DNA of 35,359 nucleotides from Candidatus Euphemobacter frigidus (GTDB taxonomy: Bacteria; Auribacterota; Erginobacteria; Erginobacterales; Erginobacteraceae). The stretch is taken from NCBI GenBank assembly GCA_030765805.1, contig JAVCDH010000009.1, forward strand, positions 1-35,359, given 5' to 3'. A program made the translations under genes and the position numbers. Positions 12,370 to 18,919 of this stretch are shown here, piece by piece; the first letter of the stretch is position 1, and the number at the start of each line of letters is the position of its first letter. The notes below the pieces were generated by a model. It ran no database searches and had not been told where the DNA came from. It was given only the letters and a program-made list of their open reading frames with translations.

Positions 12370-12398
12370 CCCCCGACCCGCGGGTCGGGGGGACTTTT
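12370..12398 (+). terminator. Perfect GC palindrome followed by a T run, probable terminator
   Basis: A perfectly self-complementary 22-nt sequence (12370-12391) pairs CCCCCGACCCG with CGGGTCGGGGG. It is followed by ACTTTTTC. It lies 36 nt after the rmlA-like stop codon and could end that transcript. The T run belongs to a repeat that also occurs at 18904-18918, so the hairpin may instead be part of a mobile repeat module. Confidence 0.45.
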
Positions 12399-12549
12399 TC
12401 AGACAAGATAACCCCGATAAATCTGGGCGGAGCAGGATTAACAAGAATTTTTCAATTTTATCCCGCTTTATCCTGCCGTCGCGGGCCATAGCCCGCTATG
12501 GCGGGCGAAGGCCTGTAAATCCTGTCAAAAATACAAATTCCTATACGAT
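12391..12549 (-). repeat. Dispersed intergenic repeat, copy A, with nested palindrome
   Basis: Read on the minus strand this matches the repeat at 18814-18919. Shared blocks in the same order are TATAGGAA, GACAGGATTTACAGG (identical 15 nt), a CAGGATAAA-like tract, CTTGTTAATC (identical 10 nt) and TGTCTGAAAAAGTCC (identical 15 nt). Copy A carries an extra 36 bp at 12476-12511 with arms GCCATAGC and GCTATGGC around a CC loop. It fills most of the rmlA-rmlB gap of 238 nt. It encodes no protein. Confidence 0.85.
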
Positions 12550-15165: not shown

Positions 15166-16262
15166 TGATCGATCGTGGACACCGTTTAAAAAAACTCCGG
15201 CGACAACTATCGCGCCGGAGACTTGATTGTCTCCTGGTCACCGGAAAGGAGAATATCTATTATCTGAGCGGTTTCTCCGGAGACGACAATTGGCTCCTGG
15301 TAACGGGAGACCGGGCTTTTTTAATAACCGATTTCCGTTACCGCGGGCGGGCGGAAGAGGAGTTGACGTTGGAGTGTGAGTTGCGGGTGCGTTCCTCCGC
15401 TTCCCTATCCGATACGGTGGCCGCTCTCTGTCGTGAGCTTTCTCTGAAACGGCCCGGTTATGAGGAGCACCACCTGAGCTGTGCCCAGTTTAATTCTCTG
15501 AAGAGAAGCTTGAAAGGGAGAAAGTGGAGGCCAGCCGGTTCCCGGGTGGAAGAAATTCGGATGATTAAAGATCCGGAAGAGATCTCCCTCCTCCGGGAGT
15601 CCGCCCGGCTGACCGGCCGGGTTCTGAATCAGGTCATGTCAAGAGCGCGGTCGGGATTGACTGAAAAAGAACTGGCCGGGCATCTCACCTCCGCCTTTAT
15701 CAAGCGGGGTTGCGAAGCAGCCTTTCCTCCGATTGTGGCCGGGGGGGGGCACAGTTCTCAGCCTCATGCCGCCTCTTCCGGGAGACAGTTTGGTCCGGGG
15801 AAGATTCTTCTGGTCGATCTGGGCATGAAGCGAAGGTTCTATAATTCGGATATGACCAGAACTTTTGTCTTGAATACTTTTCCTCGAAGATTTAAGACAA
15901 TCTACCGGGCGGTCATGGGAGCCCGGAAGAAAGCTCTTCAAGAGATCCGCCCGGGAGTTAAGGCGTCCTTTGTCGACGCCCGGGCCAGGGACTACCTGGC
16001 TGAGAAGGGATACGGCTCCTATTTTGGTCACAGCCTGGGGCACGGAGTCGGGCTCGAGGTCCATGAACGACCCTTGATCAGCGCCGGTTCCGGGGATATT
16101 ATTGAAGTTGGGATGGTCTTTACGATTGAGCCCGGTGTCTATATACCCGGGTGGGGAGGAATCAGGATCGAAGATATGGTCCTGGTGACAGACAACGGAT
16201 GTGAGGTGCTGACAACTTATCCGAAGGATTTATTATCAATGGTATTAAATGGTGACTGGTGA
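15162..16262 (+). CDS. pepP: Xaa-Pro aminopeptidase / M24-family metallopeptidase
   Basis: Cytosolic peptidase that removes N-terminal residues next to proline. The N-terminal creatinase-like domain covers about 1-135 and the pita-bread catalytic domain follows. All five metal ligands are present as Asp219, Asp230, His294 (GHGVG), Glu323 (IEPGVY) and Glu337 (RIEDM). The start is ATG at 15162 or 15165 after GGGGAGG, overlapping aroQ; an upstream in-frame extension lies inside aroQ. The protein is 366 aa. In many bacteria aroQ, pepP and efp are clustered; efp is missing here. The last codons are encoded by the start of the repeat at 16252. Confidence 0.93.
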
Positions 16263-16335
16263 TTGGTGATTAGTGACTGGTAATCTGTAACCGTCACCAG
16301 TCACTAGTCACTAGTCACCAATCACCAGTCACCAC
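16252..16335. repeat. Twelve heptads in two facing arms (7-bp-phased inverted repeat)
   Basis: The gap between pepP and the phosphofructokinase reads as 12 consecutive 7-mers with no phase slip. The first six are GTGACTG-like (GTGACTG, GTGATTG, GTGATTA, GTGACTG, GTAATCT, GTAACCG). The last six are TCACCAG-like (TCACCAG, TCACTAG twice, TCACCAA, TCACCAG, TCACCAC). The arms are reverse complements and would form a long hairpin. The first units overlap the pepP stop codon. Confidence 0.93.
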
Positions 16336-18813: not shown

Positions 18814-18919
18814 ATCATATAGGAAATTGTATTTTTTTGACAGGATTTACAGGATAAAAGCAGGATAAAATAAAAAAATCCTTGTTAATCAATTCTATTA
18901 TCCTGTCTGAAAAAGTCCC
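18814..18919 (+). repeat. Dispersed intergenic repeat, copy B
   Basis: Matches, in inverted orientation, the repeat at 12391-12549. Identical stretches include 18839-18853 (GACAGGATTTACAGG), 18881-18890 (CTTGTTAATC) and 18904-18918 (TGTCTGAAAAAGTCC). It includes a CAGGAT-rich degenerate tandem tract. It lacks the 36-bp palindromic insert seen in copy A and is shorter between CTTGTTAATC and the right end. It occupies most of the gap before thiC. Confidence 0.85.

Follow-up and report, generated by a model that had tools for sequence, protein, structure and literature searches.

The window (the whole stretch of 35,359 nucleotides analysed here) holds a palindromic unit of 36 bp, CCGTCGCGGGCCATAGCCCGCTATGGCGGGCGAAGG, at positions 12476 to 12511 of the forward strand. 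The unit interrupts one copy of a larger interspersed repeat and, judged from sequence comparison, appears to be a genuine mobile element of very small size and not a single-locus quirk. We regard it as probable that the unit is a hairpin element, non-autonomous and inserted in a site-specific manner at CCTG (more broadly CCYG), the likely agent being an HUH (Y1) enzyme supplied in trans. What points to this reading is that sites occur both filled and empty, that the boundaries are constant and the orientation single, and that the unit recurs in unrelated host palindromes and in two phyla.

Filled and empty copies of the larger repeat in the window's genome

Copy A of the larger repeat (the host, H5; 12395 to 12535, forward strand) encloses the unit and is intergenic, lying between an upstream nucleotidyl transferase gene (PF00483; 11602 to 12333, forward) and a downstream gene for a nucleotide-sugar dehydratase/epimerase (PF16363, PF01370; 12572 to 13579, forward). 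Its head palindrome, at 12370 to 12391 of the same strand, is terminator-like (CCCCCGACCCGCGGGTCGGGGG then GACTTTTT). The unit itself is built of the parts CCGTC-GCGGGC-CATA-GCCCGC-TATG-GCGGGC-GAAGG and is framed on the forward strand by a CCTG directly 5' (12472 to 12475) and a second CCTG directly 3' (12512 to 12515), where empty sites carry a single CCTG. Copy B, on the reverse strand at 18834 to 18914, has such an empty junction: copy A reads CTTTATCCTG-(36 bp)-CCTGTAAATCCTGTC, whereas copy B reads CTTTTATCCTGTAAATCCTGTC without interruption (in a shorter reading, TTTATCCTG-(36)-CCTGTAAATCCTGTC against TTTATCCTGTAAATCCTGTC). The proposal of the earlier note, that a 36-bp unit was inserted into copy A exactly where copy B is continuous, is thus borne out, with CCTG on both sides and a difference of 40 bp made up of the 36 bp and the second CCTG.

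Both the unit and its host fold better than most shuffled sequences. As single-stranded DNA, the unit with its CCTGs (44 nt) has a folding z of -2.6, with 3 of 200 shuffles as good, and positions 12395 to 12535 folded as RNA give a z of -3.3 (1 of 200 shuffles as good). Rfam returned two matches for the unit, both far below the gathering score. Elsewhere in the window, an inverted repeat with 32-nt arms that are 94% complementary, made of GGTGATTGGTGACT-like units, lies between two ORFs at 16250 to 16334.

The genome from which the window comes (G000; 2.26 Mb in 116 contigs) contains 57 pieces matching the larger repeat at E <= 10, some copies being split into two pieces. The unit occupies two places, copy A and a copy on contig C30 (1423-1448), with an identical core at the same junction; a scan of this genome for the 26-bp core (up to 3 mismatches) and for the arms pattern yielded no third copy. 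Fourteen copies were aligned over the junction; 2 of them carry the insert, and of the 12 that do not, ten have an intact CCTG. The claim that the insert is confined to copy A therefore holds within the window and fails for the genome, where the C30 copy is filled as well. The two filled copies are 97% alike over query positions 39-135 and have the head CCCCCGACCYGCGGGTCGGGGG in common; of the other copies, ten are headed by a different, recognisable sequence and two lack a head. The simplest history is probably one insertion, after which the composite was copied to give copy A and the C30 copy. The event had also been called datable, and this can be kept as a relative order: insertion would have followed the spread of the larger repeat and preceded the duplication that gave rise to copy A and the C30 copy.

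Copy A contains a second nested module, CCCCGATAAATCTGGGCGGAG, at 12412 to 12432 (forward strand), which borders CAGG, that is, CCTG on the other strand. It is absent from copy B and from the C30 copy and present in the copies on C46, C12 and C28; since it is found in copy A and these three but not in C30, exchange or repeated insertion has also occurred. This second palindromic module, CCCCGATAAATCNGGG, was found at 12412-12432 of the window and at loci L003, L010, L012, L016 and L018, and CAGG lies within 12 nt on its 3' side in 10 of 14 places among the loci of this genome. CCTG/CAGG may accordingly be a landing site common to more than one module.

Recurrence in other genomes and other host palindromes

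A scan of 84,980 genomes, one per species, from which records near the window's own were possibly omitted, found the exact 26-bp core in three places, all within another palindrome of one Candidatus Zipacnadia MAG. Zipacnadia is described in passages of PMC10290634 as a class within Armatimonadota. This MAG has 15 places with the core at up to 3 mismatches, 14 of them in GACAGGCAAGGATGCCTG^TC or its variants (^ marking the junction).

Covariance-model scans were run with Infernal under stricter filters on 44, 291 and 384 genomes, part of the candidates being scored, and the counts are lower bounds. Of the 291 Armatimonadota genomes, at least nine match at E <= 0.001 and at least seven at E < 1e-6; G252 (E 4e-4) and G263 (E 9e-4) were excluded as weak. 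The 44 genomes of the window's own phylum, which is separate from that of the 291 (no match among the latter is from G000), have a strong match in the window's genome only, among the matches listed. Four other genomes of these 44 have weak matches (E 0.0016-0.095), which look like unrelated GC-rich stretches, and none was counted; one of them, G039:C52, has GCCATAGCGGGCTATG in common with the unit, which could be chance or a remnant. Among 384 relatives, the listed matches at E <= 1e-4 are in the window's genome and in G471, which is related at the domain level only and which we infer to lie outside the 291. Viral contigs matched neither the exact nor a degenerate core, and the 66 bp around the unit gave three weak partial matches to plasmids (E 0.4) and none to phages.

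Seven Armatimonadota genomes carry the unit too, nested in no fewer than three further palindromes, each of which is also seen empty. The host in G059 is GACAGGCAAGGATGCCTG^TC, i.e. GACAGGCAAGGATG-CCTG-TC. Similarly, G343, G344 and G345 have GCGCAGGTTGAGAACCTG^CGCTACGCG, i.e. GCGCAGGTTGAGAA-CCTG-CGCTACGCG, and G336, with variants, has GTAGGAGCGACATTCCTG^TCGCGAC, i.e. GTAGGAGCGCAATT-CCTG-TCGCGAC, a type that is filled by a 75-bp form in G345 and has GCTG on the left in G342. The host of the window's genome is TTTATCCTG^TAAATCCTG, i.e. TTTAT-CCTG-TAAATCCTG. In the extracted loci, empty copies of these four types occur in 4 places (a figure that excludes filled copies caught by the same pattern), 4, 6 and 10 places, respectively, and for the three Armatimonadota types they lie within genomes that also carry filled ones. 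The element is present in two host palindromes of G345. The hosts of G059 and of G343-G345 carry GTAG (or GTAC) at one end, on the other strand; the ends of the G000 host palindrome have no GTAG.

For the flanks, we tabulated 38 orientation-normalised copies from G000, G059, G336, G341, G342, G343, G344 and G345, which represent extracted loci and not every matching place; the G471 places and seven 75-bp forms are outside this set, and L106, L097 and L104 were kept in the denominator. CCTG stands on the left in 31/38, on the right in 32/38 and on both sides in 29/38. The unit has a single orientation relative to CCTG, with CAGG on both sides in 0/38 in the better-scoring orientation. By simple arithmetic, the chance that insertion would fall at CCTG in all hosts, once the first names the target, is of the order of 1e-5 to 1e-4, given about one oriented CCTG per 20-27 positions in three hosts and 3 in 75 in the fourth. 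Independent insertions may number about five or six rather than 38, because within one host type most copies may share one composite ancestor.

The earlier note had pictured one small palindrome inserted into another, with such elements moving. In outline this idea is correct, with more support coming from outside the window than from within, through filled and empty sites and recurrence in other hosts of other genomes. The search for the unit at further sites, which the note had suggested, would by itself have spoken against movement in the window's genome, where both copies share one junction; the other hosts in other genomes reverse that outcome.

Conserved fold, flank exceptions and longer forms

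Taken with its flanks, the unit is a series of five hexamers that alternate at intervals of 10 nt, (N)CCTGC-CTTC-GCRGGC-CATA-GCCYGC-TACG-GCRGGC-GAAG-GCCTG(N); the first and the last include the flanking CCTGs. The boxes start at -3 (CCTG), 7 (CRGG), 17 (CCYG), 27 (CRGG) and 37 (CCTG), and the internal CRGG boxes (7-10 and 27-30) are complementary to CCYG. The family design is a pair of alternative hairpins with the middle hexamer in common, GCRGGC/GCCYGC. Positions 8, 19 and 28 covary (G/C/G to A/T/A), as hexamer pairing requires; double-change cells number 6 in the left hairpin (reached by 8 of 500 shuffles) and 5 in the right (37 of 500), a covariation support that comes from a single triple of sites.

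The 8-bp arms given in the earlier note, GCCATAGC (12485-12492) and GCTATGGC (12495-12502), belong to the window copy more than to the family: of the 18 distinct sequences, 12 break pair 13-24 of this long symmetric pairing and 6 break pair 14-23. As a conserved fold this pairing was set aside, double changes not being in excess there (the observed value is attained in 320 of 500 shuffles). Paired cells amount to 93.9 and 94.4% for the hexamer pairings versus 90.0% for the long pairing, a small gap, and the hexamer fold is preferred because of the two broken pairs and the 8-19-28 triple. Having TATG in place of TACG, the window copy is well symmetric, a property that only a few other copies have. 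CTAC, which reads GTAG on the opposite strand, lies directly against the inner hairpin in 30/38 copies (CTAT in the G000 copies), and a core like that of GTAG REPs within the unit is possible. The unit has inverted ends, CCTTCGC/GCGAAGG, and its loop sequences are conserved.

CCTG is missing on one or both sides in 9/38 copies. L063 (G059) has CCCG on both sides, L093 has CCCG on the left and CCTG on the right, and L081 has GCTG on the left and CCTG on the right. The flanks of L060 (TCTG on the right), L082 (CCCG/CTGG) and L087 (CCTA on the right) may reflect decay, and L106 is shifted by a 2-nt insertion. At L097 and L104 (G345:C252 and C18), unit-like 36-mers without CCTG occupy the same place in two similar coding sequences.

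Two relatives of the unit, 55 nt long, are present in G471 (L121, L122), each with CCCG on both sides, so CCTG is not the sole possible flank. One of them lies inside CCCCCTCCCG^GAGGGAGGGGG, a CCCCCTCCCGGAGGGAGGGGG palindrome, and an empty copy of that host, one mismatch apart, stands at the same locus as the filled one (L122). Equal CCCG flanks, as at L063 and in G471, fit target duplication or a changed specificity, and the unequal CCCG/CCTG (L093) and GCTG/CCTG (L081) agree with a right CCTG carried by the element, or with mutation. The CCCG flank has its exact complement in the internal boxes, CGGG, at L063 and in G471; in the commonest class (18/38), CGGG boxes accompany CCTG flanks and pairing would need G-T. 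Taken together, the CCCG cases, this class and the unequal flanks of L081 and L093 leave the second tetranucleotide either element-borne or a duplicated target.

Seven 75-bp forms (L100, L101, L105 and L108-L111, in G059, G343, G344 and G345) have the same ends and 39 nt extra inside, with CCTG on both sides in 4/7. They may represent nesting at a third level, or else a longer parental form.

Candidate enzyme, competing explanations and known systems

The earlier note had also suggested looking for a RAYT near the unit. The profile search found 17 Y1_Tnp loci at E <= 0.01, 15 of them over the Pfam cut-off, and neither the unit nor its long form lies beside any of the 17 (within about 1.5 kb, less at contig ends), which rules out RAYT as a neighbour. 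Y1_Tnp matches occur in G000 (4), in G059 (4, one below the cut-off) and in five of the six other unit-bearing genomes (four over the cut-off); G342 carries the unit and had no match in this search. The link to RAYT is indirect. Among eight loci listed, two RAYT (Y1_Tnp) genes, in G345 and G343, have GTAGGAGCGACATTCYTGTCGCGAC (H3) on both sides, in G345 as empty copies, and a filled copy of this same palindrome lies in another part of G345 (L101); because it flanks RAYT genes, H3 is a true REP. The enzyme for the unit is possibly trans-acting, lost, or of another class.

Three of the Y1_Tnp loci have palindromes of their own. At L036 (G000:C19:7075-10332), the match lies between GCGCAAGCTTGCTTGCGC-type palindromes in a REP/RAYT-like arrangement unrelated to the unit. 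The Y1_Tnp protein of L033 (G000:C33) matches a DnaA-type helix-turn-helix at its C terminus, slightly below the Pfam cut-off, and its gene is flanked by GGGGTCAAACCTACA and TGTAGGTTTGACCCC. Downstream of the gene at L120 (G343:C65), a GAGGGGCCGGTT...ACCCGGCCC palindrome is broken by other palindromes, which is another nested case.

In the course of events that we favour, the hairpin element would insert at a CCTG of the larger repeat and come to have CCTG on both sides, and the filled repeat would later be copied as a composite. Movement would proceed via a folded single strand cut at CCTG, or more widely CCYG, by an HUH transposase (Y1, RAYT or IS200-like) acting in trans. The second CCTG would be either carried by the element, as in IS200/IS605, or a duplication of the target, and a guide role could fall to the internal CRGG boxes or to the GTAG-like box. 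According to passages of PMC8266576, TnpAREP cuts a folded single strand at a CT 5' or 3' of the hairpin, and in IS200/IS605 a guide beside the hairpin pairs with the cleavage site. The CCTG flanks place a CT on both sides of the unit. On an IS200/IS605 derivation, insertion would be expected 3' of a fixed tetranucleotide, with a guide complementary to it and the target not duplicated; the left CCTG of 31/38 copies and the CRGG boxes may be read in this way, but the 18/38 with CGGG boxes beside CCTG flanks would need a G-T pair.

A bolder form of this reading, which we hold to be speculative and rather unlikely, makes the unit one of the smallest self-guiding elements: its CRGG boxes would pair with the CCYG target and choose the site, a foreign HUH transposase would, across phyla, paste the 40-nt hairpin into REPs that belong to other transposases, and the 75-bp forms would be a third nested element, a Russian-doll parasite of REPs. 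It is suggested by CCCG flanks occurring with CGGG boxes (G471, L063) and CCTG flanks with CAGG boxes (G345 and others).

Insertion by a DDE transposase is also unlikely. The unit would then be a cut-and-paste MITE-like element with a 4-bp target duplication (CCTG, sometimes CCCG), in keeping with its nearly symmetric 36 bp and inverted ends, and with the equal flanks of 29/38 copies, of L063 and of both G471 places. A single orientation at the non-palindromic CCTG in all four host types is, however, unexpected for a symmetric product, and the flanks of L081 and L093 are unequal. Moreover, the two transposase-bound ends of a DDE element hardly fit in 36 bp.

Template switching or gene conversion between palindromes through CCTG/CAGG microhomology, with no transposase, seems improbable. 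The unit does carry CCTG-like and complementary boxes every 10 nt, CCTG/CAGG recur in the hosts, and the second module of the same repeat also borders CAGG; but such events should vary in extent, whereas the boundaries are identical in four host types and two phyla, and the conserved loop sequences imply that a donor element exists. That the unit is a constant component of a single sub-family of the larger repeat, never moved alone in this lineage and arrived as a composite by horizontal transfer, agrees with the shared junction, close likeness and common head palindrome of the two G000 copies and is very improbable against the empty majority (12/14) and the unit's presence in other host palindromes elsewhere.

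The hairpin element inserted at CCTG has several counterparts among known repeats. As passages of PMC3733652 describe them, GTAG- and CGTC-tagged REPs carry a tag at one end, several REP families are inserted within other palindromes, and CGTC REPs seem to lack a dedicated transposase. The unit is like the REPs of those passages in being a palindrome of 20-40 bp, intergenic, present in distant phyla and nested in palindromes. Unlike them, it has CCTG at both ends, its internal GTAG-like box is missing in the window copy, and it resides within GTAG-bearing host palindromes. The GTAG tag is not at the ends of the unit, where CCTG stands in 29/38 copies, and in 30/38 it appears inside the unit as the internal CTAC. 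For the CGTC tag, the consensus has CTTC, and CGTC arises through single substitutions only, in the G000 copies and on the other strand of L078 and L079.

Small dispersed repeats of cyanobacteria, which are said to be very short and are thought to be mobile, can be likened to the unit by description; repeats of this kind are mentioned in a passage of PMC2884548. With REP/RAYT (TnpAREP) systems and REPINs (PMC8266576, PMC3116915), the unit shares a folded hairpin, CT-containing flanks and a mostly intergenic dispersal. A RAYT gene is flanked by its palindrome in those systems, whereas the unit flanks no Y1 gene. Insertion sequences that target REP palindromes are reported in PMC1525189; the type of target is the same, and the insert here is 36-40 bp long and has no gene.

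A text search, as opposed to a sequence search, of the open-licence PMC literature did not bring up this CCTG-flanked unit among the papers listed. Nested REPs are already in print, and the CCTG family adds a new variant. PMC8266576 calls the spread of REP-like palindromes poorly understood. A test of transposition would have a clean substrate in this family, given its exactly matching filled and empty sites, its one main tetranucleotide target, its several hosts and its two phyla, and the family shows that REPs themselves serve as landing pads for a smaller element.
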